This document shows, in pieces, positions 14,593 through 60,511 of a DNA stretch of 64,000 nucleotides. Position 1 is the first letter of the stretch, and each line of letters starts with the position of its first letter. The translations under genes were made by a program, and so were the position numbers. The notes beneath the pieces are model-generated. The model did not search any database, was not told the DNA's origin, and saw only the letters and a program-made list of their open reading frames with translations. Source of the DNA: Salinimicrobium sediminis (GTDB lineage: Bacteria; Bacteroidota; Bacteroidia; Flavobacteriales; Flavobacteriaceae); assembly GCF_900215295.1 (NCBI RefSeq), contig NZ_OCMF01000001.1:1488001-1552000 (forward strand), written 5' to 3'.

Positions 14593-14614
14593 CAATACCT
14601 ACAAATAGGTAAAT
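14593..14614 (-). promoter_or_regulatory. AATACC-N8-GGTATT palindrome, site 1
   Basis: On the + strand: CAATACC-TACAAATA-GGTAAAT. Read towards the lipoprotein gene it ends GGTATTGTCAGGT, as does site 2 (GGTATTGTTAGGT). It is 52 bases from the ATG. The -7 box at the 20-nt spacing seen elsewhere is weak here (GAATATTG). Confidence 0.5.
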
Positions 14615-14661
14615 TCATTTCATTATAGCAGCTGTTGAGTTTTCCGTGGATCGTTCCTAGT

Positions 14662-14703
14662 AAGCTCCCCGGGAAGGGGCAGCAAAATCCTTCCCGGGCT
14701 CTT
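14662..14703 (-). terminator. Strong GC-rich hairpin behind the DUF4097 gene
   Basis: The arms CTCCCCGGGAAGG and CCTTCCCGGGCTC enclose an 11-base loop. It lies 84 bases past the stop of the leftward gene. A T-tract (CAATTTTTAG) exists only on the + strand side, so its direction is uncertain. Confidence 0.5.
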
Positions 14704-14786
14704 CAATTTTTAGATCCTTACCTCCTCAATCCCATTTGTAAAATTTGATTTCCTGAAAATAAGCTTAAATGCTTTCCGGAAGGAAC

Positions 14787-15461
14787 TTAGTTTAAATAAA
14801 TATCCCCTGTTACGGTACTTAGTGTAAGCTGATTTTTTGAATCCTGCAGATCTTTTATTACTTCCTGGCCAACAAAACCTTTCTTTTTTTCGGCTTCAGG
14901 ATCATTGCCGTGGATATTGCCCATGACAGTTTTGGCGGTGTAGGAGCTGTCTTTTACCGGCAGGTTTATTTTTCCGGTAACAGAAGTCAGTTCCAAATGA
15001 CCTTTGAATTTTTTAATATCTATATTCCCTACCACCAGGTCAATTTTGAAATCCCCCTGCAGGGATTCTGAAGTCAGGTTTCCTGTAACACTGGACAATT
15101 CCAGTTCCACACCTTTGGGAACCAGGAGGGTGTAATAGATCTTTTGTTTTAGATCATTATGCTGTCCAAACTGGTCATGGTGAGCTTTTATAAGTTCTTT
15201 CATATTCGAGCTGATCTCAATCCCTGAATCGCTGCTGTTTATTTGCAGCTCATATTGTTCGGTATATTTCTCATCTTCTGTATCTACCGAAGCTTCAATT
15301 CTTATAGATGGTTTATTCCAGGTCTTCATTTCAATATCTGAAGCAAAAGCCAGTTCTACAGTTACGGGCTGTCCTTTATAGGCAACTTCTTTTTCGACTT
15401 TCTTCTGAGCCTGCAGATTAAGGCTAACGAATACCAATAATAATAAACTAAGTGTTCTCAT
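14787..15461 (-). CDS. Secreted DUF4097-type beta-helix protein
   Basis: The 224-residue protein has a signal peptide (MRTLSLLLLVFVSLNLQAQ). It continues with repeating beta-strand units: VELELSSVTGNLTSESLQ, KIDLVVGNIDIKKFKGHLEL, TSVTGKINLP and LSTVTGDIYLN. The recurring SSVTG/VVGNI spacing is that of the DUF4097 beta-strand repeat family, found in envelope proteins of Bacteroidota. It is probably periplasmic. The precise role is unknown, with stress-linked or adhesion-like functions proposed for relatives. Confidence 0.75.
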   Translation of the reverse strand: MRTLSLLLLVFVSLNLQAQKKVEKEVAYKGQPVTVELAFASDIEMKTWNKPSIRIEASVDTEDEKYTEQYELQINSSDSGIEISSNMKELIKAHHDQFGQHNDLKQKIYYTLLVPKGVELELSSVTGNLTSESLQGDFKIDLVVGNIDIKKFKGHLELTSVTGKINLPVKDSSYTAKTVMGNIHGNDPEAEKKKGFVGQEVIKDLQDSKNQLTLSTVTGDIYLN

Positions 15462-15536
15462 TGTTCTGTTTTTTGATTGATTGATTGAAAAATTCTTTAT
15501 TTAAAGACGAGGGAAAGGATTGTATGTTGCAAAAGG

Positions 15537-15677
15537 ATGTTGAGAGTGAGTACAAGGCCTTTGGGAGGAAGTGAAGAAGAGATTGTGAAAATGCTGCTGA
15601 AAGCTGCTCTTACAGGTTTTGCATTAACACTTTCAAAGGAGGAAGCCATATATCTGAAAAATTTATTGTGCACTTAA
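15537..15677 (+). CDS. Possible 46-aa gene or gene remnant
   Basis: An ATG-started frame encodes MLRVSTRPLGGSEEEIVKML and LKAALTGFALTLSKEEAIYL, then stops. The same frame stays open for about 85 more codons after this stop. That extension contains a CNC-x14-CVVC zinc-ribbon-like pattern and ends near 15932. The layout suggests a small gene or a broken longer one. Codon use is not clearly protein-like, so confidence is low. Confidence 0.3.
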   Translation: MLRVSTRPLGGSEEEIVKMLLKAALTGFALTLSKEEAIYLKNLLCT

Positions 15678-16034
15678 AGATCTTGCCATATATTTGCCAG
15701 CCCAATTACGGAACGCCCTATAAGTTTCGATTGGAATTTTCAAAATATTTTCCCGGCAGCATCTTTTAGCCGGGGGAGAATCAGAGAAAAATACGGCAGG
15801 ATTTTAGCCGACAGGATAAGCGCCAAATGGTGCAATTGCAGGAAAATTCCTAAGAAGGGATCTGCTGCAAGGAAGATTAGTTGTGTTGTTTGTGGCAAGC
15901 TTCGGTTTGCCTTGGGTTTAGAAGTAAACCAATGAGAAGCTTTTCCCTTTTTTGGGAAGGGCTTTTTTGTTTTATGGTTACGGGCCAAACCTTAGGATTA
16001 AAAAGAATGATTTCTTTGAATATTCCTTAAAGGT
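15678..16034. other. Stretch without a confident gene
   Basis: Frames on both strands are open here but neither looks like a real protein. The + strand frame (15678-15932) has a CxC/CxxC pattern and may be decayed coding DNA. A terminator hairpin is at 15937-15967. Confidence 0.35.
15937..15967 (+). terminator. Rho-independent terminator
   Basis: The arms AAGCTTTTCCC and GGGAAGGGCTT around TTTTTT are followed by TTTT. It lies between a possibly decayed rightward frame and the end of the leftward gene at 16035, and would serve the former best. Confidence 0.6.
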
Positions 16035-16400
16035 TCAGGATTCCATATTTTTCAGGATCTCTTCTTTTTTAAAACGGTCGTTAGTCCGCCTGATCTTCTT
16101 TCCCGGGTCATCTTTTTTTGTGGGAAAGCCTTCCGGAAATTCAAGCTTTCGGTATTCAGATCCATCTTCGAGGTAAAGACTTCCACCGGGATTATCCTTA
16201 CTTTTTGCTCCCACAAAGAAATACTTTCCGGTGGCGCGGGAATTTAACTCATTAGGATCTGGATCTATGGATGAAATATATTCCCCGTCTTTTTTTTCTG
16301 AAAAGAGGTAAAATTCTTCCTTATCAAAATTCACTATTTCCTTCCCCCCGGGCGTTGTAAATAATTCATATTTCCCTTCAGATTTCAATTCCTCTTCCAT
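16035..16400 (-). CDS. Hypothetical acidic cytoplasmic protein
   Basis: The 121-residue hydrophilic protein, without signal or membrane segment, is rich in Lys/Glu/Asp (MEEELKSEGKYELFTTPGGK, then FVGAKSKDNPGGSLYLEDGS). No domain is recognised. It is a single leftward gene between a terminator and the divergent DUF5723 gene. Composition is like that of its host neighbours. Confidence 0.55.
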   Translation of the reverse strand: MEEELKSEGKYELFTTPGGKEIVNFDKEEFYLFSEKKDGEYISSIDPDPNELNSRATGKYFFVGAKSKDNPGGSLYLEDGSEYRKLEFPEGFPTKKDDPGKKIRRTNDRFKKEEILKNMES

Positions 16401-16596
16401 GCCAAATGTTATTAAAGATTCCTGATTTCAATTTCAAGATACGGCATTTTTCATCCTGATTACACGTCCTGATATTTGGAAATGAGAAAATTAAGAGAAA
16501 TTTAGTGTGGAAGGAAATCTGTAAAATTCGGGTCCGTAATTAAATCAGGCAATGGATTTCCATATTTCGCTGTGGGTAAGCAGCTGATATATCAGA

Positions 16597-16618
16597 AATT
16601 ACCTACTTGTGGGTATTT
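16597..16618 (+). promoter_or_regulatory. AATACC-N8-GGTATT palindrome, site 5
   Basis: AATTACC-TACTTGTG-GGTATTT. Exactly 20 bases after its end stands a perfect -7 box TATGTTTG (16639-16646), 15 bases before the ATG of the DUF5723 gene. The site occupies the place of a -33 element, as expected for an activator-dependent promoter. Confidence 0.6.
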
Positions 16619-16638
16619 CAAAACACTTCCTAATAGGA

Positions 16639-16646
16639 TATGTTTG
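16639..16646 (+). promoter_or_regulatory. -7 box of the DUF5723 gene
   Basis: TATGTTTG matches TAnnTTTG fully. No good -33 TTG is found at 17-23 bases upstream, where instead the palindrome of site 5 lies. Confidence 0.55.
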
Positions 16647-16661
16647 ACAAAAATTTTCCTG

Positions 16662-17990
16662 ATGAAGAAAACCTTAGCTTTTACTGCAGTCCTTTCCTGT
16701 CTTTCTTTTAATGCCATTGCCCAGTCCTATATTGGTCTCAGTGTAGATAATTACAGCGGCATTCACGGGGTGCTCTATAACCCCGCATCTATTGTAGATT
16801 CCAATTTCAGGACAGATATCAATCTGGCTTCGGTAAGTGTTTTCGCAGGAAGTGACTATTTTGGGATTGATCTTGGCAATGCCTTTGAAAGCACAGAAGG
16901 TTTTAATATTGATGACCAGGTGCAAAAATTTCCGAAAGATGACAATCAGTTTTTTGTGAATGTGGACGTGCTGGGTCCTTCCTTTATGTTCAATCTTAAT
17001 CCAAAAAGCAGCCTTGGAATCACTACGAGGGTGAGGGCGTTTATGAACCTCAACAATGTCAATGGAAAACTATATGAAAATATAGAAGACGGTTTTGATG
17101 AGACCGAAAATTTTGATTTTGAACTAAGGGAGCTCTCGGGTACTGTTCATTCCTGGGCAGAGATAGGAGTGACCTATGCCCGTATTCTCATGAATGGCGG
17201 AGACAATTTTTTAAAGGGTGGAATCTCCTTAAAATATCTGCAGGGAGCGGGTTCGAATTTTATAAATGCACCGTCTGTGAACGGAGAGTTTAATGCCGAA
17301 ACCGAATTGATCACCACTTCGGGAACTCTTACCTATGGCAAAACCCCGGGATTTGATAGTGACGATGTTGAGTTCAGTAACTTAAGTTCGGGATTTGGAG
17401 CAGATCTTGGATTGATATACGAATACAGACCCAACCAGGGTTTGCAAGAAAATATGGATGTTGTGAGCCATAGTGATTATAAGTTGAAACTGGGAATTTC
17501 GGTGACAGATATTGGTAGTATTAGTTATGATGGAAGCACAGTTTCCACCTATGATCTTGATAATGCTGTTCATGAGGACCGGTTTGAAGATAATGATCTT
17601 GAAACGGTGCTGGAGGAGGATTACCTGGGAACAGAAGAGCTGATAGATGCTAAAATTTCTTTGCCTACTGCGGTACATGCCCTGGTAGATTATAAGTTCC
17701 AACGGCATTTGTTCCTTGCTGTACAGGGATCTCTTTCCCTGGTAGGAGAAGGAACCGAGAAGGCAAACAGGATTTTGAATACAGTCACAGCAGTACCGAG
17801 ATTTGAATCAAAATGGTTTAGCTTTTACCTGCCCGTGGGAATGCGGCAATATGATGGTTTTACCATGGGAGCCGGCTTAAGGCTGGGACCTCTTAGTATA
17901 GGATCGGGCTCTTTGATCTCAAACTATATTTCAGATTCTGCAAAGACCACAGATGTTTATGTAGGGCTTAAGATCCCAATCTACAGATAA
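16662..17990 (+). CDS. Secreted DUF5723-type outer-membrane-associated protein
   Basis: I chose the ATG at 16662 because it begins a signal peptide (MKKTLAFTAVLSCLSFNAIA), giving 442 residues. A longer in-frame extension would put 30 residues before the signal and would overlap the promoter. The mature protein has alternating beta-strand character with many Gly/Asn/Asp turns (YIGLSVDNYSGIHGVLYNPA, then LRLGPLSIGSGSLISNY). It ends VGLKIPIY, typical of an outer-membrane beta-barrel of the DUF5723 family in Bacteroidota. The LuxR-type regulator at 18122 follows 131 bases later. Confidence 0.75.
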   Translation: MKKTLAFTAVLSCLSFNAIAQSYIGLSVDNYSGIHGVLYNPASIVDSNFRTDINLASVSVFAGSDYFGIDLGNAFESTEGFNIDDQVQKFPKDDNQFFVNVDVLGPSFMFNLNPKSSLGITTRVRAFMNLNNVNGKLYENIEDGFDETENFDFELRELSGTVHSWAEIGVTYARILMNGGDNFLKGGISLKYLQGAGSNFINAPSVNGEFNAETELITTSGTLTYGKTPGFDSDDVEFSNLSSGFGADLGLIYEYRPNQGLQENMDVVSHSDYKLKLGISVTDIGSISYDGSTVSTYDLDNAVHEDRFEDNDLETVLEEDYLGTEELIDAKISLPTAVHALVDYKFQRHLFLAVQGSLSLVGEGTEKANRILNTVTAVPRFESKWFSFYLPVGMRQYDGFTMGAGLRLGPLSIGSGSLISNYISDSAKTTDVYVGLKIPIYR

Positions 17991-18121
17991 GAGCTCGTCA
18001 ATTTCTGGAATAAAATGGAGCTTGTTTTTCAAGGCAAAGCTTCAGGTTTTGTATAGGCAAAGAAAATTTTCAGCAGAAGTTTAGTTTTTTTGAATTAATT
18101 TCAGGAGAACAAAACTTCTCA

Positions 18122-18799
18122 ATGACAGCATTTTACCAAGACCCGAAGCTTCAGCAAAAAATAGAAGCCTTCGCGCCGCATGCCGAAATGATGCCTGCGG
18201 TGGTCATTATTCAGCAGCTGGAGCCTTTTACCTCTATTTACATGACTTCCCGGGGCCTTAAAGAACTGGGGATCACTATTGATGAGTTGCGGGCGATGGG
18301 TCCTGAATACCTGGAGAGGTTCTTTAACCTTGAAGACAGTGAGGATTATCTCGAAAAACTCAAGCGTTTACTGCAGTGCCGAAACACAGAGGAGACTTTT
18401 ACCTTTTTTCAGCAGGTGAAGATCAACTCCCACGAAGACTGGGTGTGGCATATTGGTTCTACAAGGATCTTTTATATGGACGGGCAGGGCAACCCTACCC
18501 ATATTGTAACAACTGCTATTCCTATTGATAAACTCAAACATATTCCCAATAAGGCCGAAAGATTACTGGCAGAGAAAAATTTCTTTCATGACAATTTAAC
18601 CAAATTCCTTAGCCTTGGAAAAAGGGAGAGGGAGGTTCTAAAGCTGGTGGCGTTGGGTAAAAGTTCGGTGCAAATCGGGGATGAGCTGTGTATCTCTTCC
18701 ATGACCGTGAATTCACATCGAAAAAGCATAAAGAATAAGCTGGGTATTTCCTCAACCTATGAATTCACATTGTATGCCCATGCCTATGACCTGATTTGA
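18122..18799 (+). CDS. LuxR-type transcriptional regulator with PAS-like N-terminus
   Basis: The 225 residues have an N-terminal PAS-like sensor part (VVIIQQLEPFTSIYMTSRGL, VKINSHEDWVWHIGSTRIFY) and a C-terminal LuxR HTH (LSLGKREREVLKLVALGKSS, then VQIGDELCISSMTVNSHRKS, IKNKLGISSTYEF). No phosphorylatable receiver is present, so the input is probably a ligand or a partner protein. It belongs to a group common in Flavobacteriaceae. It lies downstream of the site-5-controlled DUF5723 gene and is one candidate for reading the shared palindrome. Confidence 0.8.
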   Translation: MTAFYQDPKLQQKIEAFAPHAEMMPAVVIIQQLEPFTSIYMTSRGLKELGITIDELRAMGPEYLERFFNLEDSEDYLEKLKRLLQCRNTEETFTFFQQVKINSHEDWVWHIGSTRIFYMDGQGNPTHIVTTAIPIDKLKHIPNKAERLLAEKNFFHDNLTKFLSLGKREREVLKLVALGKSSVQIGDELCISSMTVNSHRKSIKNKLGISSTYEFTLYAHAYDLI

Positions 18800-18999
18800 T
18801 CTTTCTAAAGTTTCTTTAAAAAACCTCTAAAAAATGACATTTTGGAAGCTCCTTCCTAATGACTCATTTCTACCGTCATAGCCCCTCGCTCCTCTGTTAA
18901 GCAATTCTGTAAGAGCTTGTAGGAAGGGTGTTAAAGGAATGGTAAGATTTAGCTTCCAGCGGTAATTTTTGGTTGTAAACCTTATATTTACTTCCTATA

Positions 19000-19007
19000 T
19001 ATATTTG
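19000..19007 (+). promoter_or_regulatory. Promoter -7 box of the PAS/GAF kinase
   Basis: TATATTTG matches TAnnTTTG. TTG triplets at 18968-18975 lie slightly further upstream than the usual 17-23 bases. The ATG is 35 bases downstream. Confidence 0.5.
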
Positions 19008-19042
19008 TTAGTCGCCAAAAAAGATTAATAAACCGTCCCCTC

Positions 19043-21436
19043 ATGGAAAAGGATTTTGTAAAAGGAAAGGTCAACGACGGACTTCGGGGTGATGATTCTC
19101 CCGAATATTTTGAAGACTCACCTCTTGGATTTTACATTTGCGACCCCCGGGGATCCATTATTTATTATAACAGGGCTGCTGCGGAATTATGGGGCAGAAA
19201 ACCTGTGCCTGCTTCAGAAGTTTGGAGTGGTGCCTGGAAGTTATTCTATCCCGACGGCACCCCAATGGCTGTGGAAGATTCTCCCATGGCAGCACACTTC
19301 AGGACCGGAAACGAGGGAAAACATTCAGAAGTATTAATAGAGCGTCCCGATGGCACTTTTAAAATGCTGCTGGTCTTTTGCCGGCCTCAGTTCAGCAAAG
19401 ATAAACAGCACACCAATTCGCATTTTACACTCGTTGATATTACCGAGCAGCAAAGAGATCATGTAAAGCAGGCTACTCTTTCGGCTATTGTGGCATCTTC
19501 AGACGATGCCATCATCAGCAAGGATCTTAACGGGATTATTACAAGTTGGAACCAGGGTGCAGAGAGGATCTTTGGTTATTCGGAAGCAGAAGCTATAGGA
19601 CAACCTATTACCATGCTTATTCCGGAAGACCGGTTGGGGGAAGAAAAGGAAATTATTGCCAACATTAAAAGCGGCAAAAGGATAAAACATATTGATACCA
19701 TCAGGCTTGATAAGAACGGAAGGGAAATTCCCATCTCTGTAACAGTTTCTCCCGTTAAAAATGCCTTCGGAAAGATCGTGGGAGCCTCAAAGGTGGCGAG
19801 GGATATCAGTGACAGGTTACAAATTGTCGAAAAGCAGGCTATGCTTTCGGCCATTGTGGAATCTTCAGATGATGCCATTGTAAGTAAAAACCTGGAAGGG
19901 ATCATTATGAGCTGGAACAGGGGAGCAGAGCAGCTCTTTGGTTATACTGAAGCCGAAATCGTGGGAAAATCAATTACCACTTTAATCCCGGAGGAGCGGC
20001 TTAAAGAAGAAAATATCATTTTAGACAGGATTAGGAGCGGAAAGAAGGTAGACCATTTCGAAACAGTAAGGTGCCACAAATCCGGCAGGGAATTTCCCGT
20101 TTCTATCACCGTTTCTCCTATAAGAGATGCAAAAGGGAGAGTCATTGGAGCCTCGAAGGTAGCAAGGGATATCAGCGTGCAGGTGGAATCTCAGGAAGCG
20201 ATGGAGAAATATATCAGCAACCTGGAAACTCTTAATACCGTTGGGAAAAGTATTTCTGAAAATCTTGATGTACAGGGGATCCTGCAGCGGGTGACAGATG
20301 CTACAACAAAGCTTACAGGAGCTGCATTTGGAGCCTTTTTCTATAATACTACCGATGAAAATGGGGATAGTTTTAAGCTGTTCACTCTTTCCGGCGCACC
20401 CAGGGAAGCTATGGAACAACTGGGAATGCCCAGGCATACAGAAATGTTCATCCCCACTTTTGTAAATAAGAAGGTGGTGCGAATTGACGATATAAGGAAA
20501 TTTAGCGGGCATGGTAATAATGCCCCCTATAATGGTATGCCCACAGGACATTTTGAGGTGGTAAGTTATCTGGCGGTACCGGTGGTGGCGAAATCGGGAG
20601 CGGTCATTGGCGGGCTGCTATACGGGCATCCGGAACCGGATGTTTTTACCGCAGAAGCAGAACTTATGGTGGTGAACATTGCTGCACAGGCAGCGGTTTC
20701 CCTTGATAATTCCAGGCTTTTTGAGCAGGTAAAATCCTTTAGTGATAAAAAGGATGAATTTATTGCCCTTGCCAGCCATGAATTAAAGACGCCGCTCACT
20801 ACTATAAAAGGTTATTTGCAGGTGCTGACTAAGAAAGATAATGACCCCATGTCTAAGCTTTTTATAGACAAATCTCTCTACCAGGTAGAAAAGTTGAATG
20901 CCCTCATCGAAGACCTGCTGAATATGTCAAGGATCGAAGCAGGCAGGCTGGATTTCAATCTTGAGATATTTGATATGAGGGAATTGCTGGGAGAGATCCT
21001 GGAGACCTTTAGCTATTCGGCAACCACTCATGAGGTTGTGAACAACCTGGGAAGTGAGCCGGTTTTTGTAAAAGGAGATAAGCAGCGGATAGAACAGGCA
21101 GTTTTAAACCTGTTGATCAACGCAATAAAATATTCTCCTTCTGCAGATAAGGTATACCTGTCTCTCGAGGTAGTGGGGAAAAATGTTACCGTGAGGGTGA
21201 AAGATGAAGGAATGGGGCTCACCCGCGAACAAAAAGAACAACTGTTTACCCGCTTTTACAGAGCAGAAAATACCAAAGGGATCAGTGGACTGGGACTTGG
21301 GTTGTATCTCACCAAACAGATCATTGAACGGCATAAGGGAGTGATACAGGTGAGCAGCGAATATGGAAAGGGTTCAGAATTCTATTTTACCCTACCCATG
21401 AGAAGGAAAAAGATGAAAAAAGAAAAAGCGGTTTAA
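19043..21436 (+). CDS. PAS-PAS-PAS-GAF sensor histidine kinase
   Basis: The 797-residue soluble kinase contains PAS domain 1 (about 25-130), then two near-duplicate PAS domains (about 140-260 and 265-385, each with SDDAI, GYTEA or GYSEA, and GASKVARDIS). A GAF domain follows (about 395-555, TKLTGAAFGAFFYN), then HisKA with the phospho-accepting His in ALASHELKTPL (about 577), and a HATPase_c domain (INAIKYSP, DEGMG, GLGLGLY). It has no membrane helices, so it senses a cytoplasmic cue such as redox, light or a small ligand. The receiver-only gene 49 bases downstream is the likely partner. The PAS 2/3 similarity indicates an internal duplication. Confidence 0.9.
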   Translation: MEKDFVKGKVNDGLRGDDSPEYFEDSPLGFYICDPRGSIIYYNRAAAELWGRKPVPASEVWSGAWKLFYPDGTPMAVEDSPMAAHFRTGNEGKHSEVLIERPDGTFKMLLVFCRPQFSKDKQHTNSHFTLVDITEQQRDHVKQATLSAIVASSDDAIISKDLNGIITSWNQGAERIFGYSEAEAIGQPITMLIPEDRLGEEKEIIANIKSGKRIKHIDTIRLDKNGREIPISVTVSPVKNAFGKIVGASKVARDISDRLQIVEKQAMLSAIVESSDDAIVSKNLEGIIMSWNRGAEQLFGYTEAEIVGKSITTLIPEERLKEENIILDRIRSGKKVDHFETVRCHKSGREFPVSITVSPIRDAKGRVIGASKVARDISVQVESQEAMEKYISNLETLNTVGKSISENLDVQGILQRVTDATTKLTGAAFGAFFYNTTDENGDSFKLFTLSGAPREAMEQLGMPRHTEMFIPTFVNKKVVRIDDIRKFSGHGNNAPYNGMPTGHFEVVSYLAVPVVAKSGAVIGGLLYGHPEPDVFTAEAELMVVNIAAQAAVSLDNSRLFEQVKSFSDKKDEFIALASHELKTPLTTIKGYLQVLTKKDNDPMSKLFIDKSLYQVEKLNALIEDLLNMSRIEAGRLDFNLEIFDMRELLGEILETFSYSATTHEVVNNLGSEPVFVKGDKQRIEQAVLNLLINAIKYSPSADKVYLSLEVVGKNVTVRVKDEGMGLTREQKEQLFTRFYRAENTKGISGLGLGLYLTKQIIERHKGVIQVSSEYGKGSEFYFTLPMRRKKMKKEKAV

Positions 21437-21484
21437 GACGGGGAAATATAGTTTTCCCGAATTATACCAGAGAAAAAAATTGCT

Positions 21485-21832: not shown

Positions 21833-21837
21833 AATTA

Positions 21838-21880: not shown

Positions 21881-21910
21881 GTCGGTTACCTTGGAAAGTC
21901 TTTTAGGCGG

Positions 21911-22458: not shown

Positions 22459-22488
22459 TTGTTGTTCGACACAAAAACCTTTTAATCG

Positions 22489-23008: not shown

Positions 23009-23017
23009 TTTAAAACA

Positions 23018-42427: not shown

Positions 42428-42745
42428 ATGGCTTTAGAGATAACAGACGCAACATTTGAAGAGCAAGTGCTAAAAAGTGACAAACCGGTAATGGTTGACT
42501 TTTGGGCAGCCTGGTGTGGACCTTGTAGAATGGTAGGTCCAATCATTGACGACATCAGTAAAGAATACGAAGGTAAAGCAGTAGTAGGAAAACTGGATGT
42601 GGATGCAAACCAGGAATTTGCTGCCAAATATGGAGTGAGGAATATCCCCACAGTTTTGATCTTCAAAAATGGGGAAGTAGTAGGAAGACAGGTAGGAGTT
42701 GCTCCTAAAAATACATATGCAGAAGCTTTAGACCAGCTTTTGTAA
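42428..42745 (+). CDS. trxA: Thioredoxin
   Basis: The 105-residue thioredoxin has the active site WCGPC (about 31-35) in FWAAWCGPCRMVGP, the cis-Pro in RNIPTVLIFKNGE and the full-length thioredoxin fold. It reduces protein disulfides and serves as electron donor. AT-rich promoter DNA precedes it and a strong bidirectional terminator follows. dnaE-trxA-DUF58 order is seen repeatedly in this bacterial family. Confidence 0.95.
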   Translation: MALEITDATFEEQVLKSDKPVMVDFWAAWCGPCRMVGPIIDDISKEYEGKAVVGKLDVDANQEFAAKYGVRNIPTVLIFKNGEVVGRQVGVAPKNTYAEALDQLL

Positions 42746-42764
42746 TGGATGATTCCATAAAAAA

Positions 42765-42800
42765 ATAAACAGGCCCGGAATTTTCCGGGCCTGTTTATTT
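42765..42800. terminator. Bidirectional terminator
   Basis: The arms ATAAACAGGCCCGGAA and TTCCGGGCCTGTTTAT are perfect, with T-rich DNA on both sides. It separates the convergent trxA and 42816-43250 genes. Confidence 0.85.
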
Positions 42801-42815
42801 TTGGTCTGATTTACA

Positions 42816-48330: not shown

Positions 48331-51300
48331 TTACAGCTTTTTAAAATTATTTAAGGGTTCCCTGTCTATGAGCAAATGATTGGGATCTATTCCCACCAAA
48401 TCGGGTTCTTTATTCACCTGAATTGTGACCGAATTTTCTCCTGAAGTTATTCTATGCCTTTTTAAGTAAAGTAATTCTCCGAGATCACCTTCGGGAGAGT
48501 TGGCGTATACGGCCAGATCAATATAATCCGCAACAGGCAATTCTGTGACCACACCTTTTTCATCTACTGCAATTTTTTTGATCTCAAAATTAAAAGTGAC
48601 CTCCCATTTACCATTTTTGGAAGGAGTGACAACAGATTCTTTGGCTTCCATTTCCCAGAAAGTATTCTGCGCAAAAAGGTCGTGCAGCAGGTACTGCAGG
48701 GAATCGGGGGTTACCTGTTGGAGTTCGGCGTAGAGATCGAGGGTCGTGGGAAGTGGCGGTTCTCTGGACTCAAATCTTTCCAGCAGTCTTTTCAACGCCA
48801 GATTCACCTTTTCTTCTCCAATATATTCCTGAACAGTGTACAGCGCGAATGGACCCTTGCGGTAAGCGTTAAATTTATCTGTAGCTCGAAGGAGAGGAAC
48901 ATCGGCGGGGGAGCGCGGAGATTCATACTCCATTCTCATCACGTGTAACAGCGTCTCGAGATGCTCCTTCCCGAAGGTATTTTTCACCAGCATCCACGAG
49001 CTGTACCACGCCAGGCTTTCAGTAAGTATGGGAGCTCCTTCAATATAGGCAGGCCTCAGTTCATTCCCCCACCATTGGTGCGCCACTTCATGACCGGTTA
49101 CAGCAAACGGAAAATCAAGTTTCCGGTGATCTTTTTCGGGTGCAAAGAAGGAAAAACCTTCAGTGTACGACATGGTTACGGGATTACCATTAAGCCCGAC
49201 TCCGCTTCCGGGAAATTCAACCAGCCTAATCTGGCTGTGAGGATACGGACTAAAATTTTCAGAAAAATATTCCAGCGAGGCTTGAACTCCATGAAGCATT
49301 CGCTCAAGATTTCGGGTGTGTCCGGGATGATAAAAGATCTGGATATCGACATCATTCCAGCTCGATTCGTGCAGTTTGTATTCCGCAGAAAAGATCTCGT
49401 AATTATGTGTGATCGGAACATCTGTGGCGTAGTCAAAATAGTTGCGATCGTCTTCTTTCCAGCTTCTTTTGAGAGTCCCGGCGGTAATTGCAGTCTGCTC
49501 TGAAGATGTACCCAAAACCGCTTCAAAATGTATTTTTTCGGCTCCGCTTATGTCCATGGTTCTAGTGCGGTCATATAATGATGGCACCCTGGACTGCAGC
49601 GGCAAACCAAATTTTTCCCTTTGCGCCTTATCACTTATTTCCCGGCCCTCCTTATACCCAATAGCAGGTAATAAATGATAACCAATATAAGTCCCATTTG
49701 CAACTACCTCCTGATTTCGGCCATAATTGCTGAATCCCTTTTGATCCAAACGCGCTAAAAATTCCAGCTGAAGGGAATCTCCCGGCAAAAGCGGCTTTTT
49801 AAGCCTGTAGATTCTGTGTCCAAGATCATTGTCGATAATGACCGCGGAAGTTTCTTCGGAAAACTTCATTTTTTCAGGATCAACGTCTGAAGTAGTTGAG
49901 ATATGAAGCGTATCGATCGCTTCGGAAGTTTTGTTCACGAGCTTGTAAGTTCCTTTAATTTCTGCTGCCTGTTCTTCAGGATAAAGTTCCACCTGAAGTT
50001 TGACTTCAGAAAGGATTGGCTGAAGCGCATTTTTGAAATTTCCGTATTTATTCTCATAAAGTACCTTCCGTTCTGTTTTCTCAGTGACCGAATTGTAGTC
50101 GTTCAGGACATTGGTATTGTAAAACACATATCCTCCGACAAGGAAAACAACCAGAAGGGCCGGCAGGCCAACCTTTGCGGGAGTTCCGGAGAAATTTTCC
50201 TTCGCCTGATTATACCTTCTGCTAAATTTAGATTCCTTTCCTCTCACCCAGAACAACCTCGACACCAATGCGAGCAGGATCGCCCAAACCGCCCAATAGA
50301 ACTTGAACCAAAGCCACGGACCGATTGATGATGCAAAACCACTGATTTCAGAATAAAACCATTCCGGAGCCGCGCCGTAGATCAGCAGGTTGTGATGAAG
50401 GTTCATTAGCCCCGGGAAGTACATGTAAAAGAACATGATAAAGAGTACCAAATGCCCCACATACTTCTGGTTGACCAACACGTGAACCAGAAAAGCCACG
50501 GCGGTAAAAAGCAGCAGATCAAAAAATCTCAAACCGAAAAGCACTTTTAGATAGAGCATAAGATCAACTGACGGGGAATCAAGTAAATACTGAACAATAA
50601 AACCGGTACACATCACCAGCAACTGCAAAAAGAACAGCAGGATCGCAAGACCGAAAAATTTTGAAAGGAACAAGACCGAATCCTTAACCGGGGCAGCATC
50701 ATTGATCTCGTTCAAGCGTGAGTCCCGTTCTTTCCAGATGAGATCACCGGCGTAATATGTGATCAAAAGTGCAAAGACCAAACCTGTTCCCATGGCTTTG
50801 AGAAAGCCAATCACGACATAGGTTGTAGGGATCATAGGCACGCCCAACTGACCTTCAAGGACTTCTTTACTGGCGATGATGCTAAGCACAGCAATAGCCG
50901 GATAGATGAGCCACACCATTCCCTTAAACATGCTTCGGAAGGAGCTTAGACTCAGGTAAGTCACCTGCCGGATTTTTGTTCTGAGGTCAAAACTTCTTTG
51001 AACCAAGGGTGCAGCAACTCCGTTGCTCCATATCTTTTTTGGAATTTCTGAAGTGCCTGGATTATTTGTCCTGGATTTTCTTTTACTGCCGGTTTGTAAC
51101 TTAAAACTGAAACTGAAATATGCCCAGGCCAGTAAAACAAAGGAGCCGGCCAGCCAGAACAGCCTGTTTAGAAAGAGGAACTTATCGGCTGCCACAAATC
51201 CCGATTTTAGCTCCAGGGGCGTCTGTACCTTCCGGAGTTCCTTAAGAATGGTAAGACCCGAAAGGTCCAGTTTTTTAGCCAAAGCCCATTTTCCAATTTC

Positions 51301-54566: not shown

Positions 54567-54660
54567 AGTGCCCGAAATTCGTCACTTTGGGCACTTCATT
54601 CATCACATTTACTATTTTTTCGCAGCTAATTATGTTAATCTTGTTCTATAAATATTGATA

Positions 54661-56070
54661 ATGAATATTCTTAATGCATTTGATTTGAAAAGGGAGTACA
54701 GCCTCACAGAAAAGGTGGAGTTCGGTCTTGCGACCCTCTTATTCTTTCTGGGATTTACAGTAATTATTGCTGAAGGTCCAATTCCGTATGCTGCTCTTTG
54801 GGGAGTGGATTATCTCTACTTTATTCTTGTCCTTTGTTTTTTTTACTTGTCATTTCTACTGCTGAATTTTGTAGTTGTTCCCACCATAGGAAAGCGCGAA
54901 GCCTTATTGCGGAACATGGTCGCCATAGTAGCAATCTTTGGAATTTCCTTTGCTCTTTCCCCGCACCTCGATGATAATGTTCTTATTACTGTCCTGGTAG
55001 TGTATTTTTTTATAAAATTCAGTGTCATTTTTCTATGGAGAAGATTCAGGGCCTTTAGAGAGGAAAAAGGCAGCTTTTCTACAGGGATCTTACTTGCTGT
55101 TATCTTCTATCTCCTCCTCATGTTTTCAATGTTCTTAGGGGAGGCGCACCCCGGAGCAATAGCAGTTCCGGGCATTCTTGTCCCCTATAGCATTGGATTT
55201 TATGTTTTTTCATTTCATAAGCTCTTGCCGGTGGCTGTGCAAAAGAAGCACCCGGTCTGGGATTATGTCTGGAAGACTTTTCTCGTCCTTTTATTTTCGG
55301 GCATTCCACTCGGTTTTCTGATATACCTGTTAACCGGGGATGAAGATTTGCCTCTAATAGTGGCGATGCTTAATTTCCCTGTACAGTTTTTCATCACCGC
55401 TCCAATTAGCTGGCTTGTTTATAAGCGGCATACAAAGGGGAAGGAAGAAGTGGACAAACTCCAGAAGGAACTGGGACAATCTACGGCAAAATTTGACTTT
55501 TTGAGATCTCAGATCAATCCGCACTTTCTGTTCAATGCTTTAAATACTCTTTATGGCACGGCAATCCAGGAGAATGCAGATCGCACAGGGGAGGGCATTC
55601 AGAAATTGGGAGATATGATGCGGTTCATGCTGCATGAGAATATGCAGGAAAAAATTTCGCTTGAGCGGGAGATCGAATATCTTGAGAATTACATCAGCCT
55701 GCAACGGCTGCGGACAGATCCGAGTCCCACAGTTACCATTCAGGCGCAAATACAGCAGCAATTTGAATATGCGCAGGTCTCTCCGATGTTATTGATCCCT
55801 TTTGTGGAGAATGCTTTTAAGCACGGGATTAGTTTCAGGGAAGCTTCTCACATCAAGATAGCGTTGGAGAAGAAGGAAAATACGCTATATTTCGATGTGT
55901 ACAACAGCAAACACCCCCGGGTGGAAAACGATCCGGAAAAGGACAAAAGCGGGATTGGACTGACAAATGTGAAACAACGGTTGCAACTGCTGTATCCTAA
56001 AAAGCATGAACTTTTGATAAGGGAAAATTCAAAGGAGTTTTTCGTTCACCTTACACTTCAGTTGAGTTAG
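54661..56070 (+). CDS. LytS/YpdA-type sensor histidine kinase
   Basis: The 469-residue protein has about seven N-terminal membrane helices, then a His_kinase domain with the phospho-His in FLRSQINPHFLFNALNTLYG and an ATPase with PFVENAFKHGI and SGIGLTNVKQRLQLLYP. This is the LytS/YpdA class. It starts at the ATG 54661 and ends immediately before the LytTR gene (no bases between). It likely senses a membrane-linked or extracellular signal and phosphorylates the next protein. Confidence 0.9.
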   Translation: MNILNAFDLKREYSLTEKVEFGLATLLFFLGFTVIIAEGPIPYAALWGVDYLYFILVLCFFYLSFLLLNFVVVPTIGKREALLRNMVAIVAIFGISFALSPHLDDNVLITVLVVYFFIKFSVIFLWRRFRAFREEKGSFSTGILLAVIFYLLLMFSMFLGEAHPGAIAVPGILVPYSIGFYVFSFHKLLPVAVQKKHPVWDYVWKTFLVLLFSGIPLGFLIYLLTGDEDLPLIVAMLNFPVQFFITAPISWLVYKRHTKGKEEVDKLQKELGQSTAKFDFLRSQINPHFLFNALNTLYGTAIQENADRTGEGIQKLGDMMRFMLHENMQEKISLEREIEYLENYISLQRLRTDPSPTVTIQAQIQQQFEYAQVSPMLLIPFVENAFKHGISFREASHIKIALEKKENTLYFDVYNSKHPRVENDPEKDKSGIGLTNVKQRLQLLYPKKHELLIRENSKEFFVHLTLQLS

Positions 56071-56757
56071 ATGAAAGCAATCGCCATAGATGACGAACCT
56101 TTAGCACTGGAGGTGGTAAAATCACATGCTTCAAAAGTACCTTTTTTGGAACTCTCGGCGACGTTCACCGATGCCTTTAAAGCTCTCGAATATCTGCAGA
56201 GGGAAAAGGTGGATCTCATCTTCCTGGATATTAAAATGCCAGATATCTCCGGAATAGATCTCTTCAGCAGCCTGAGTAAAAAACCCCTGGTCATTTTTAC
56301 TACTGCTTATTCTGAACACGCCGTGACCAGCTTTGAACTCGATGCCGTGGATTATCTGCTGAAGCCTTTTTCGCTGACCCGGTTTATTAAAAGCTGTAAT
56401 AAAGCAAATGAATTATTCAATTTCAGAAACTCTGCCGAGCCTTCAGATTTTATTTTTGTTAAAGACGGATATGATCAGCTGAAGATCCACTACGACGACA
56501 TCCTCTATCTGGAAGCCGCAGGGAATTATGTCACTTTTATGCTGAAGGAAAAGAAAGTGCTTACCAGAAGTACATTTCAGGAAGCCCTGAATCTTTTACC
56601 GTCAGAAAAGTTTGTGAGGGTGCATCGGTCATATATTGTCGCAGTGTCGAAAATTGATAAAATTGAGAGGCATCAGGTGACGATTCAGAAGAACACTGTT
56701 CCTGTTAGCGGGGCATATAGGGAAGACCTGAATAAAGCGTTGTCGAAAATAAAGTGA
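56071..56757 (+). CDS. LytTR-type response regulator
   Basis: The 228 residues have a receiver (AIDDEPLALEVV, phospho-Asp in IFLDIKMPDISG, Lys in DYLLKPFS) and a C-terminal LytTR DNA-binding domain (ILYLEAAGNYVTFMLKEKKV, then VRVHRSYIVAVSKIDKIERH). It controls target promoters by binding imperfect direct repeats. It directly follows its kinase and probably regulates the local serine hydrolase and ABC genes. Start chosen at the ATG abutting the kinase stop codon. Confidence 0.93.
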   Translation: MKAIAIDDEPLALEVVKSHASKVPFLELSATFTDAFKALEYLQREKVDLIFLDIKMPDISGIDLFSSLSKKPLVIFTTAYSEHAVTSFELDAVDYLLKPFSLTRFIKSCNKANELFNFRNSAEPSDFIFVKDGYDQLKIHYDDILYLEAAGNYVTFMLKEKKVLTRSTFQEALNLLPSEKFVRVHRSYIVAVSKIDKIERHQVTIQKNTVPVSGAYREDLNKALSKIK

Positions 56758-56849
56758 GAATTCAAGTAATCCCTCCACCCTGTCTTTATTGTACTGCAAT
56801 TCGGTGATTATAGAAATGAAGTCTCCGGAGTGGCCTATATAAAAAGTGG

Positions 56850-56894
56850 AATTGGACGAGTCGTTCGGGCATCAACCAGACAACAATTTGAAAA
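56850..56894 (+). other. Possible relic of a tRNA-Asp 3' end
   Basis: The segment GGACGAGTCGTTCGGGCATC, then AACCAGACAACAATTTG, can be aligned with the 3' end of tRNA-Asp at 44505-44550 (GTTCGAGTC, then TCGTCCAGACC, then CAACATG). The following AAAAAGAAG and CTCC hairpin are also shared. It is heavily degraded. Confidence 0.4.
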
Positions 56895-56895
56895 A

Positions 56896-56926
56896 GAAGA
56901 TCCTCAATGGAGGAGCTTTTTTTTAT
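56896..56926 (+). terminator. Hairpin terminator
   Basis: TCCTC and GAGGA around AATG are followed by a run of T. It resembles the terminator behind tRNA-Asp (44554) and terminates the LytTR gene transcript. Confidence 0.6.
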
Positions 56927-56942
56927 GGAGCAAAAAGGTTAT

Positions 56943-56964
56943 CAATACCCATATATAGGTATTG
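56943..56964 (+). promoter_or_regulatory. AATACC-N8-GGTATT palindrome, site 3
   Basis: CAATACC-CATATATA-GGTATTG is the best inverted repeat of the set. Twenty bases after its end lies TATCTTTC (56985-56992), a near -7 box, and the ATG of the serine hydrolase gene is 18 bases further. Confidence 0.6.
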
Positions 56965-57009
56965 TCTTAGTTTTTATTTAAAAATATCTTTCCTGAAAAT
57001 TTAAAGTAT

Positions 57010-58107
57010 ATGAAGAGCTGTTTTTACCTTCTTCTTTTTGTTTTGTTGTTGGCCGGATGCGATCCCGCAGATGATAAAATTGAGGAGAACTTAACCGGAT
57101 CGGAAATATTTGAATCCCTTGATGAAAAAATTCAAAAACTTCTGGATGATCATAATGTAAGTGGAGCACAGCTCGCAATAGTAAGGGATGAAAAACTTGT
57201 TTATTCCCAGTCTTATGGATTTGCGAATCTTGAGGAATCTATTCCGGTTACTTCACAATCCCGGTTTCGAATAGCCAGTATTTCCAAGCCTATAACTGCA
57301 GTAGCAATATTAAAACTTAAAGAACAAGGTTTGCTTGATCTGGATGATCCTGTTTTTGGTGTAGGTGCAATTCTTGGAACTACCTATGGAAATAAACCTT
57401 ATGGAGAGGATATAAAGAAGATTACAGTAAAGCATCTTCTGGAGCATAGATCGGGGTGGACCAATACCCCTAATGATCCTATGTTCGCAAATTTGAATTT
57501 TACTCATGCGCAGCTTATTGGAGATGTACTGGATAACCGGTCTCTCACAAATGCACCCGGAAGTACAGAGTTTTATTCAAATTTTGGATACAACGTGCTG
57601 GGACGGGTTATTGAAGCTATCACCAACAAACCATACAGCACTTATGTAAAACAGGAAATCCTTACGCCGGCAGGAATAACAAATATGGAGATTGGAGGTA
57701 ATACTTATTCAGAAAGGCTTATGAATGAAGTAAAATATTACACCCAGGAGAATTTTGATCCATACAAAATGAATGTTTCCCGGATGGATTCACACGGAGG
57801 TTGGATAGCTTCTGCTGAAGACCTGGTAAAATTGCTTGTAAGAATAGATCGCAAATCATCCAAACCCGATATATTAAGTAATTCCTCCCTTCAGGAATTA
57901 TATTTTGGATATCAATACTGGTATTTCTTTGGATCCTTACCGGGCACATCAACAGTACTATCAAGAGTGAATGACCGTACCGGGTACGCACTACTTTTGA
58001 ATTCAAGAACTCTTCCTCCCAACGGAATTTTAGAGGAAATGAACAGCATTGTACGAAATGAACTTATCTCGATCCCTAATTGGCCGAATCAGGATCTTTT
58101 TAAGTAG
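57010..58107 (+). CDS. Serine hydrolase lipoprotein, beta-lactamase-related
   Basis: The 365-residue protein has a lipoprotein signal (MKSCFYLLLFVLLLAGCDPA, Cys 17). Catalytic motifs are FRIASISKPITA (Ser-x-x-Lys) and FYSNFGYNVLG (Tyr-x-Asn); a third motif is not obvious, and HGGWIASAEDL may fill the role. It is shorter than the hydrolase at 53133 and lacks the C-terminal lipocalin-like part. It is anchored in a membrane facing the periplasm or outside. Its promoter has regulon site 3. Confidence 0.85.
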   Translation: MKSCFYLLLFVLLLAGCDPADDKIEENLTGSEIFESLDEKIQKLLDDHNVSGAQLAIVRDEKLVYSQSYGFANLEESIPVTSQSRFRIASISKPITAVAILKLKEQGLLDLDDPVFGVGAILGTTYGNKPYGEDIKKITVKHLLEHRSGWTNTPNDPMFANLNFTHAQLIGDVLDNRSLTNAPGSTEFYSNFGYNVLGRVIEAITNKPYSTYVKQEILTPAGITNMEIGGNTYSERLMNEVKYYTQENFDPYKMNVSRMDSHGGWIASAEDLVKLLVRIDRKSSKPDILSNSSLQELYFGYQYWYFFGSLPGTSTVLSRVNDRTGYALLLNSRTLPPNGILEEMNSIVRNELISIPNWPNQDLFK

Positions 58108-58279
58108 GACTGTGATGCGATATTATATCAAGACTACCATTTTTATTTAGGTTTAGAATTTCCGAAAAATAAATTAGCCTCTAAAACCTATCTAACAATA
58201 GTCCCCTTTCTTTTAACGGAAAGGGGACTTTCTTCTTTACCCAAAAAAATTAGCCCAATAGATAAATTCCCTATAAATA

Positions 58280-59554
58280 TTAAGGAAAGCTGAGAATGGT
58301 AGTGGTGCCGGTTCCAATTTCCGACTTGATTTCGAGACCTCCTTTTAGTTGTTTCGTCAGGGAATGCATGAGAGACATTCCCGATCTCCTTTTATTTTTA
58401 TAAAGATCGAAACCGTTTCCATTATCTCTGATCTTAAGAATGTATTTATCAGAATAACTAAAGAAGATCTCCAGTCTTGGCTGATCAGTGTTTATGAAGC
58501 CGTGCTTAAAACTATTGGTTATAATTTCGTTGCAGATCAATCCAAGCGAAATAATTTTTTCCACAGGTAATTCCAGGGGCTCAATGTTGTAATCAATAAT
58601 TTCCTTACCATCCTTAGTCTCATTGCTCCCATTATAAAGAGAAAGTATACTTTCACAGAGCTCCTGAATATATTCAGGTATATATATGCTTATCCTCTGG
58701 TTAGGACCGTATAGCTTTTGATGCACAAGAATAATAGAAATAAGACGATTCTTGGTTTCTTCAACCTGGGAATGTTTTTCTCTATTTTCTTCATCCAGGA
58801 TCTGCATGTCCAGAAGGCTAATGACCAATTGCAGGTTATTCTTTACCCGATGACTTAATTCCTGCAGGAGGGTTTCAATATACAGGTTTCTCTCTTTGAT
58901 CTGGGACAAAGAATTTTCCAGAGCTTCATGCTTCTCTTTTAATTGTACAGATTGATTTTCTATTTCTAAACTTTTCTTAATGATCTCCTGCCGGTCTTTG
59001 GACATCCTGTTCCTAAAATAGATCGTGACATAAGTTGTAAGACCCATGGAATAGAACATGGTGGTCATATGATCAACGGCCGCCTCTCCATTGGAATTAT
59101 AAGGGGTGATCCAGTGTGGGAAAAAATATTGCAGGAGGAAAAGGGAAAAAAGAAATAAATAAAGACTTCCGGCTATATGTTTTTGATATTTCTTTGGGGT
59201 GACCAGGATGAAAACGTTGAGTAAAACAAGAACCAGGTAAGGAACTGTACCGCTAAACCCACTGTTATAAAAATACATGATTCCAAGGATCAGAAATATC
59301 GCACTTAAATAATAAACAATGAAGATGCTGGAGAACCTGAACTTATATCTGGAGAGATAAAATAAGTAGAATGCCACTAAACTCCCTATGAAACTTAATC
59401 CTACGACTATGAGGTTTAGACCGATTAAATAGTTTAGCAGAGTTCCTACAAGAGCAAAAACCCCAATTGAAAATGCTGAAATATTAAAGATCTTTTCTTC
59501 AATTTCGAGTTCAGGACTCCCTCCAAGATTTCGAAAAAAACCTGCCAGATTCAT
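58280..59554 (-). CDS. Membrane histidine kinase, HisKA_2 type
   Basis: The 424 residues include about six N-terminal membrane helices (residues 25-190), a coiled coil, the phospho-His segment LLQELSHRVKNNLQLVISLL (HisKA_2, as in PdtaS/HWE-type kinases) and an ATPase domain with GLICNEIITNSFKHGF, RDNGNGF and SGMSLMHSL. It is 9 bases downstream of its response regulator. It senses an unknown membrane or extracellular cue. The pair is preceded by regulon site 2, which suggests autoregulation. Confidence 0.88.
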   Translation of the reverse strand: MNLAGFFRNLGGSPELEIEEKIFNISAFSIGVFALVGTLLNYLIGLNLIVVGLSFIGSLVAFYLFYLSRYKFRFSSIFIVYYLSAIFLILGIMYFYNSGFSGTVPYLVLVLLNVFILVTPKKYQKHIAGSLYLFLFSLFLLQYFFPHWITPYNSNGEAAVDHMTTMFYSMGLTTYVTIYFRNRMSKDRQEIIKKSLEIENQSVQLKEKHEALENSLSQIKERNLYIETLLQELSHRVKNNLQLVISLLDMQILDEENREKHSQVEETKNRLISIILVHQKLYGPNQRISIYIPEYIQELCESILSLYNGSNETKDGKEIIDYNIEPLELPVEKIISLGLICNEIITNSFKHGFINTDQPRLEIFFSYSDKYILKIRDNGNGFDLYKNKRRSGMSLMHSLTKQLKGGLEIKSEIGTGTTTILSFP

Positions 59555-59563
59555 CGATCTGTT

Positions 59564-60157
59564 TTAATCATTTTTTATCCATTTTAGTCTCGAGGAGAGT
59601 GCAATGAGTTCATAGGTTGAATTTACCTTATACTTCCTGAGCATATTTTTTCTTTGAGTTTTAATAGTGTGCTCACTTAAAAAAAGGAAATTACCTATGT
59701 CTCTGCTATTGAAGCCTTTTATGAGGAGTTCAATTATTTGAAGCTCCCGGGCACTGGGCTTCACTATACTATCTTCCAACCTGTTTTTTTCAACTTTGTT
59801 CAATGCTATTGAAAAAGCCACAAGCAACTGTCTTTCAAGAAAGGGTTTGATAAGATATGTCACGGGTTCTGTTTCCAGGGCTGCATCCAGGTAATTCTTG
59901 TCACTGTACGCAGTTACGTAGATTACGGGAACATACCGTTCCTGCTGAATTTTTTTGACAACACAAGTACCGTCATGACTATTGTTCAAATGGATGTCAC
60001 TTATGATTAAATCAACCGGCTCTTTTTTAAAGATTAAAAGCGCATCCTCCTCGTTATCTACTATGGTAATATCACAGTCGGTATGCTTTTGAAGAATATA
60101 GCTGATATTCTCTGCGACGAGAATCTCATCCTCAATAATTAAAATGTTGATTTTCAT
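59564..60157 (-). CDS. Response regulator, receiver plus LuxR HTH
   Basis: The 197-residue protein has a receiver domain (LIIEDEILVAENISYI, phospho-Asp in LIISDIHLNNSHDG, Lys in TYLIKPF). It also has a LuxR-type HTH (PSARELQIIELLIKGFNSRD, then IGNFLFLSEHTIKTQRKNML). It is the natural partner of the kinase at 58280. Two AATACC-N8-GGTATT palindromes lie in the 399-base region upstream, one towards this gene and one towards a 43-aa peptide gene. This protein is therefore the best candidate reader of the motif. Confidence 0.9.
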   Translation of the reverse strand: MKINILIIEDEILVAENISYILQKHTDCDITIVDNEEDALLIFKKEPVDLIISDIHLNNSHDGTCVVKKIQQERYVPVIYVTAYSDKNYLDAALETEPVTYLIKPFLERQLLVAFSIALNKVEKNRLEDSIVKPSARELQIIELLIKGFNSRDIGNFLFLSEHTIKTQRKNMLRKYKVNSTYELIALSSRLKWIKND

Positions 60158-60309
60158 CTATTAAGGATTTAAAACTTTTAAGTACTTGTAGAGCGTGTCC
60201 AAATAAAATAAAATTCCTGATTAAATATGATATGATTTTGTTCCTCTCTAAAATTTTTTTTCAGGTATTTTTAGAGATAAATAAAAGTAGACCACCAGAT
60301 TTGACCTAA

Positions 60310-60331
60310 CAATACCTATAATTAGGTAAAA
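60310..60331 (-). promoter_or_regulatory. AATACC-N8-GGTATT palindrome, site 2
   Basis: CAATACC-TATAATTA-GGTAAAA on the + strand. On the minus strand a -7-like box TACTTTTA follows after 20 bases, reading to the response regulator gene. Confidence 0.55.
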
Positions 60332-60489
60332 TAGGGAAAGAGACCGGGGGTTCCTGCCGTTCAAGGGTGCAGGTTTTTATAGGGAAATCTTAATTCTTTC
60401 CTCCGCCTGAAAATATTTTCTTCTTTCACAGCAAAGCAGTCATAATATGAGCAGGAGAAAGTACTACTCAGGGGAATTTTGGGCTTAAA

Positions 60490-60511
60490 AAATACCACTA
60501 AAGAGGTATTT
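60490..60511 (+). promoter_or_regulatory. AATACC-N8-GGTATT palindrome, site 4
   Basis: AAATACC-ACTAAAGA-GGTATTT, followed after exactly 20 bases by the perfect -7 box TATATTTG (60532-60539), 17 bases before the ATG of the 43-aa gene. Confidence 0.6.

Follow-up and report, generated by a model that had tools for sequence, protein, structure and literature searches.

In the window studied here, a stretch of 64,000 nucleotides (nt) from Salinimicrobium sediminis (contig NZ_OCMF01000001.1, positions 1,488,001 to 1,552,000), five intergenic palindromes were found that very probably represent a LuxR/NarL (GerE) operator of the form AAAATACCY-N6-RGGTATT(T/G), used throughout the lineage as a class II activator site. 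A dimer of a GerE protein would bind the two half-sites, with the centre of the dyad about 43.5 base pairs (bp) before the transcription start and the promoter-side half-site beside the -33 region, where the protein would touch the RNA polymerase. In the window, the operator would activate the genes for a lipoprotein, a DUF5723 protein, a serine hydrolase lipoprotein, a peptide of 43 amino acids (aa) and a kinase/response-regulator pair.

Putative operators and promoter geometry in the window

All five palindromes listed in the initial annotation were located where it had placed them (Table 1; sites are named by the first base of the 20-mer AATACC-N8-GGTATT). The TACC-N8-GGTA core is present in every one of them (14594, 16598, 56944, 60311 and 60491), and GGTATT is the promoter-side arm of each dyad when it is read towards the gene that it serves. 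Two sites (56944 and 60491) match the 20-mer perfectly, 16598 has one mismatch, and 14594 and 60311 have two each, their right arm on the plus strand being GGTAAA. The longer form CAATACC-N8-GGTATTG had been described as common to the five sites; what they share is the core, and only 56944 has the longer form whole.

The -7 box, TAnnTTTG (hereafter the box), begins 21 nt after the end of GGTATT in four of the five sites, which equals the fixed 20 nt noted earlier for four sites, where an extra G was counted. Two of these boxes are perfect and two have one mismatch. Site, spacing and box taken together, with at most one mismatch, occur four times in the window; in 200 dinucleotide shuffles the mean is 0.01 and the highest count one. 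The loose palindrome with up to three mismatches is not enriched there (34 against a mean of 27.9, with 14 of 100 shuffles reaching 34).

An additional palindrome in the window (TATACCCAATAGCAGGTAAT, 49653-49672) has two mismatches and is absent from the site-plus-box matches. At 60311 and 14594 a second AGGT was spotted by eye about 10 bp downstream.

Table 1. Operators, boxes and genes of the window in order of position (ORF, open reading frame).
Feature	Positions	Strand	Remark
Cys-rich lipoprotein-like ORF (MKKFYLL...SCELLG)	14226..14540	-	ATG 24 nt after box; without Pfam match
Poor -7-like box GAATATTG	14565..14572	-	two mismatches; 21-nt spacing
Operator TTTACCTATTTGTAGGTATT	14594..14613	-	faces lipoprotein gene
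Operator ATTACCTACTTGTGGGTATT	16598..16617	+	upstream of DUF5723 gene
-7 box TATGTTTG	16639..16646	+	perfect
DUF5723 protein (PF18990), 442 aa	16662..17990	+	downstream of 16598 operator
LuxR-type regulator	18122..18799	+	GerE sole Pfam match; candidate reader
Operator AATACCCATATATAGGTATT	56944..56963	+	arms perfect
-7-like box TATCTTTC	56985..56992	+	one mismatch
Serine hydrolase lipoprotein (Pfam Beta-lactamase family)	57010..58107	+	ATG 17 nt after box
Sensor histidine kinase (HisKA_2, HATPase_c)	58280..59554	-	adjoins response regulator
Response regulator, REC + GerE, 197 aa	59564..60157	-	candidate reader; 124-nt leader after box
-7-like box TACTTTTA	60282..60289	-	one mismatch
Operator TTTACCTAATTATAGGTATT	60311..60330	-	faces response-regulator operon
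Operator AATACCACTAAAGAGGTATT	60491..60510	+	arms perfect
-7 box TATATTTG	60532..60539	+	perfect
43-aa ORF, hydrophobic C-terminal segment	60557..60688	+	ATG 17 nt after box; without Pfam match

Recurrence of the geometry in relatives and in the phylum

The same arrangement was found to recur in related bacteria. A search of 149 genomes, that of S. sediminis included, with at most one mismatch gave 118 matches in 62 genomes against 27 in 24 for the reversed control. When the spacing was left free from 8 to 34 nt (27 spacings), ATACCY-N6-RGGTATT with TAnnTTTG gave 27 exact matches in 17 genomes and two for the control, and 23 of the 27 have a spacing of 21 nt. In 395 genomes sampled from the phylum there were 31 exact matches in 21 genomes against four for the control, 28 of the 31 lying in the same class; the spacing is 21 nt in seventeen, 20 or 22 nt in seven and some other value in the remaining seven. 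An A-tract extends beyond the searched pattern, as positions -3 and -2 are A in 88% and 94% of 68 aligned sites, respectively.

In Flavobacterium psychrophilum the -7 box occupies positions -12 to -5 (PMC9723704, main text), from which the position of the dyad centre given above would follow. The box thus lies at a fixed distance from an operator beside the -33 region, though less strictly across the sampled phylum (17 of the 31 exact matches), and this geometry and its recurrence in relatives support the class II placement that had been proposed for the window. A single preferred spacing would be explained by contact between the activator and the polymerase; a repressor that blocks the promoter would not need it.

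The 80 loci fetched for inspection (60 and 20, one of them for a free-spacing match) cover 83 of the 113 matches outside the S. sediminis genome. Loci with clearer palindromes were fetched first, and two of the genomes, G006 and G007, were already known to have a LuxR gene nearby (G, L and C denote genomes, loci and contigs). Twenty further loci were fetched from the matches of the phylum sample. At two loci (L299 in G490 and L313 in G474) a single palindrome has a -7 box on either side, apparently giving two divergent promoters.

Association with LuxR-type genes

The neighbourhoods of the sites are rich in GerE genes. With a small custom model, such genes were found in 16 of 60 site loci of about 6 kilobases each, against 1.09 expected from PF00196 genome counts (P ~7e-15, related loci being counted separately), and in 22 of 81 loci when 20 more loci and one on contig C3 of S. 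sediminis were added. The 121 genomes with GerE genes contain 116 sites and 25 controls in 387 megabases (Mb), or 0.30 against 0.065 per Mb, and the 28 smaller genomes without them contain two sites and two controls in 37 Mb. A LuxR-type protein, as the initial annotation had proposed, is therefore most likely the reader.

Both candidates in the window belong to this family by Pfam matches above cut-off, 59564 with PF00072 and PF00196 and 18122 with PF00196 only, and the S. sediminis genome holds ten GerE paralogues. The regulators near sites elsewhere include REC-GerE proteins of about 208 aa that follow sensor kinases carrying HisKA_3 and HATPase_c domains (checked for the kinase in L127, L132 and L154 and for the regulator in L127 and L154), a GerE protein of 126 aa (L147) and GerE proteins of 259-270 aa (L114, and L165 with a PAS domain). 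A REC-GerE protein near a site in G031 (L158) is 34% identical to 59564. The recognition-helix stretch T(I/V)xxxRK(N/S) occurs in 14 of the 22 GerE proteins near sites, those of the window included.

The operator of NarL, known as 7-2-7, consists of inverted TACYYMT heptamers with a gap of 2 bp. The length and the TACC/GGTA cores fit all five sites, the full heptamer only one arm of 56944. Features in common with NarL/FixJ systems are the REC and GerE domains of 59564, a 16-bp dyad with equally spaced CC/GG cores and the class II-like placement, whereas the promoters here are of the TAnnTTTG type, the arms are (A)ATACCY and not the full TACYYMT, and LuxR proteins of several subfamilies adjoin the sites.

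Directly upstream of the 56944 site, a sensor kinase (His_kinase) and a LytTR response regulator are encoded at 54655-56757. LytTR proteins were considered as readers, and the LytTR gene (56071) does precede this site; adjacency elsewhere does not support them, a LytTR gene being found in only one of the 81 loci with a model built from two sequences of which one came from that very locus.

Candidate readers and alternative explanations

Several observations weigh against the operator as described. The fifth site, 14594 on the minus strand, has only a poor box with two mismatches at the 21-nt spacing; 14 of the 31 matches in the phylum sample are not at 21 nt; and the full TACYYMT fits only one arm of 56944. 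As many as 59 of the 81 site loci lack a neighbouring GerE gene, and the excess of GerE genes in the 60 loci compares a custom model with PF00196 counts over loci that are not all independent, such as four LuxR promoters from the genus. The genomes without GerE genes are small, and eight of the 28 were assigned by elimination from the matches listed. In the S. sediminis genome of 3.48 Mb, the bare TACC-N8-GGTA core is at the level of the reversed control (59 against 56), a shorter geometric pattern with up to two mismatches gives 36 against 45, and the stricter pattern with at most one mismatch gives five against two, a difference that is weak by itself; four of these five lie in the window and the fifth on contig C3. 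Arms flanked by W are more frequent (16 against 6). The counts for the bare core and for the two-mismatch pattern led us to drop enrichment in the whole genome as proof and to base the case on the window and the relatives instead.

If the dyad covered the -33 region and blocked the RNA polymerase it would be a repressor operator, for which the extension of the promoter-side arm to the -33 region speaks by its position. We regard this as quite unlikely, since blocking tolerates many positions and 23 of the 27 exact matches keep a single one; some boxes are moreover imperfect, as activator-dependent promoters would have them. The fixed distance to the box would also suit a composite promoter or an alternative sigma-factor site without any dimeric regulator, a most improbable reading given the dyad symmetry and the association with GerE genes. 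Neither 'palindrom' nor 'LuxR' occurs in the main text of the F. psychrophilum promoter study (PMC9723704), and the sigma motifs in the passages considered are unlike the dyad.

The identity of the reader is a separate matter within the class II activator model. The response regulator 59564 had been proposed as the best candidate, and two of the sites flank its operon, one of them as its own promoter; 14594, 56944 and 60311 moreover have the common form (A/G)TAGGTATTGT. That it reads all five sites alone is nevertheless unlikely, because similar sites adjoin other LuxR types and because its relatives in the genus reach at most 37% identity, yet the site upstream of DUF5723 is kept in the genus genome G004. 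This genome is the source of the only DUF5723 orthologue (63% identity) found in the eleven other genus genomes, and its operator is at the same place (L169), in line with the expectation that sites would be conserved upstream of orthologues. Only remote matches (~25-31%) to 59564 and to the LuxR protein of contig C3 were found in G004, those to 59564 having 25-29% identity; a wider search for relatives of 59564 led to five distant ones from other phyla, which were not used. On the other hand, G004 has a LuxR protein of the 18122 type (64% identical to 18122 and 70% to the paralogue on contig C4 of S. sediminis), and the operator beside this gene has 15 nt, CCATTTCTGGGTATT, in common with the DUF5723 operator. 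Since the genome that keeps the DUF5723 site thus has an 18122-type LuxR and nothing close to 59564, 18122 is favoured for this site.

The converse reading, in which 18122 or another GerE protein is the reader and 59564 merely a target, is doubtful. It draws on the sequence common to the two G004 operators, on the start of 18122 only 131 nt after DUF5723 and on the relatives of 18122 (56-64% identity) in ten genus genomes including G004, each of which lies beside the operator of a putative small RNA, R1, described below. In the window itself, 18122 has no R1 RNA beside it and none of the five sites directly upstream. Within the activator model we therefore prefer a division of labour that most likely assigns the DUF5723 site to 18122 and at least the two flanking sites to 59564, with several LuxR paralogues most likely sharing one type of operator. 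Judged from the sequence, 59564 is a good putative reader and hardly the sole one.

Further LuxR genes are themselves preceded by the operator. It is kept in all four copies of a 270-aa LuxR gene at 67% identity or more, that of S. sediminis included; a 37% relative in G010, not counted among the four, has only a two-mismatch match on the other strand. On contig C4 of S. sediminis an apparent remnant of a second LuxR gene (L115, 2688-2903) precedes the LuxR gene, and a tandem GerE partner was observed before the C4-type LuxR in G002, G003, G009, G010 and G011.

Predicted small RNA genes behind the operator

Relatives of 18122 are accompanied by an operator of the same geometry that lies about 90-140 nt past the stop codon of the LuxR gene and faces back to it. 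It has two to three mismatches to the search pattern, and its left arm is often ATCCCC. The predicted transcript, R1, has 75-103 nt between the LuxR gene and the operator. Its closing hairpin is bordered by T runs on either strand and is apparently a terminator shared with the LuxR gene. A pattern match on contig C4 of S. sediminis that at first seemed to have no gene proved to be the predicted R1 promoter; this R1 copy lies at 113664-113738 on the minus strand.

The first helix of R1 given by RNAalifold is the one that had been drawn by hand. Across eight sequences, four of its eight pairs change on both sides, and 92% of the cells pair against 76% in shuffled alignments, which have a covariation score of 0.23 where the real one has 0.50; by a weaker measure, 53 of 500 shuffles reach four pairs changed on both sides. 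Only this helix was scored, as three of the eight rows of the alignment (A1) are one column off in the terminator. A model trained on the eight sequences matches ten of the twelve genus genomes with E values of 7e-12 or better, eight of the ten being the training genomes and G002 and G006 being new, and the two genomes without a match are 74-75% complete. All ten copies have the operator and a neighbouring LuxR gene of the 18122 type (56-64% identity). G004 has a second, weaker match (E 8e-4) immediately after a geneless site, and another on its contig C7 (E 2.9e-4) has no operator.

Beyond the genus, no match to the R1 model was better than E 6.5e-4, and none of these weak matches had an operator. 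Scanning the window with the model revealed no convincing R1 gene; the best match, at 42739-42802 (E 0.023), looks like a terminator only. In Rfam, seven R1 loci gave a single match at chance level (E 0.98) that lies off R1, and 15 loci with R1 or other operator-driven RNAs gave none at the gathering score.

R1 is one case of a wider use of the operator. We classified 110 sites, comprising four in the window, one on C3, 83 in relatives and 22 in the phylum sample. An ORF of at least 40 aa starts within 75 nt in 68 of them and is absent in 42. A terminator lies within 200 nt of 24 of the 42 sites without an ORF, against six on the opposite side, and of seven of the 68 sites with an ORF, again against six. 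Where the 270-aa LuxR is present, in four genomes of the genus, a terminator stands between its gene and the promoter upstream. All three matches in G093 precede predicted RNAs of 76-82 nt in which the 5' hairpins and the terminators differ and AAGTAAGTTTTTTTGGGGTAA is invariant. In relatives, the operator thus also precedes apparent small RNA genes that end in terminators and would be expressed from it.

The RNA set comprised 34 sequences, made up of 26 hand-picked terminator sites (L146, L149 and L173 moved there from the ORF class) and eight R1 sequences, and a subset of 25 with reduced relatedness. GGGG is exposed in the predicted fold of 12 of these 25 RNAs, whereas 200 shuffles average 1.25 and do not exceed five; the relatives left in the subset (L135/L137, L114/L167/L174 and two R1) overstate the strength of this enrichment but leave no doubt about its direction. 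There is no enrichment of GGA (28 of 34 RNAs against a shuffled mean of 29.1). CCCC is enriched (10 of 34 RNAs, 3.1 in shuffles), as the terminator stems of R1 can explain.

We put forward, tentatively and with somewhat less than even confidence, the generalization that the Bacteroidia have one LuxR/NarL operator code with several paralogous readers. It would switch surface lipoproteins together with a class of otherwise unrelated small RNAs, which differ in their stems, have an unpaired GGGG seed in common and frequently lie next to the gene of their LuxR regulator, forming a local module with it.

Relation to known systems

In the Gac/Rsm system, the NarL-family regulator GacA drives the small RNAs RsmY and RsmZ from a palindromic upstream site; RNAs of this type have repeated GGA loops and titrate a CsrA/RsmA protein. 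Site and small RNAs resemble those described here, whereas in our set some RNA genes adjoin a LuxR-type gene and GGGG, not GGA, is enriched and exposed; the RNAs are thus not a copy of that system.

FopS and GibS are small RNAs of Bacteroides thetaiotaomicron, of which FopS is expressed from canonical promoters of the TAnnTTTG type (PMC11697453, PMC7366714). FopS differs in that a single-stranded 5' seed is followed by a terminator, and 'LuxR' is absent from the main texts of both papers; GibS differs in its PM2 motif, centred at -10 and -30 according to the main text, as opposed to the operator dyad near -43. Rfp18 of F. psychrophilum (PMC9723704), which was compared by its description only, resembles R1 as a structured small RNA of the Flavobacteriaceae, and differs in that LuxR and a palindrome are absent from the main text. 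In the passages considered from these three papers, no description was found of the operator, its geometry or LuxR-adjacent small RNAs.

LuxR/NarL operators placed as class II sites are a known kind. The literature searched, which covered few subscription journals, yielded no description of this operator, of the geometry with which it recurs across the class or of small RNAs that it would control next to LuxR genes, nor was a module of regulator and small RNA found there for the phylum.

To our knowledge, few operators are known for LuxR/NarL proteins of the Bacteroidota. Given a defined dyad at a preferred distance from the promoter, regulons could be read from the sequence of many members of this phylum, and for small RNAs the operator offers a handle that points to their promoters and adjoining regulators. 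The targets of the GGGG seed and the link from sensing to surface lipoproteins become testable, and the ten GerE paralogues of S. sediminis raise the question of how several such proteins in a genome share one operator type.

Predicted target genes

Genes behind the operator tend to encode apparent surface proteins. A hydrophobic N-terminus was found in 48 of the 63 ORFs behind an operator that have 60 aa or more, against 129 of 358 other ORFs of the same loci, and a lipobox-like motif in 22 of 63 against 25 of 358, with both features called by simple heuristics and some of the ORFs possibly spurious. Start codons follow the box at a median distance of 29 nt. The predicted targets in the window fit this trend with two lipoproteins, the DUF5723 protein and the 43-aa ORF with its hydrophobic end, to which the regulator operon is added. 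For the Cys-rich lipoprotein ORF the ATG start is our choice, as the listed TTG start (14567) overlaps the box.

Operator-like sites with a good -7 box were also observed 19 nt upstream of a 648-aa protein in G004 (L170, 1178) and G005 (L176, 944). This protein has threonyl-tRNA synthetase domains (Pfam for L176 only), and the sites before it may be other than a LuxR site. Finally, a lipoprotein with the motif VNxTSIIPS recurs as a target in L128, L138, L147, L150 and L154, and in L147 and L154 it adjoins a NarL-type regulator of 208 aa.

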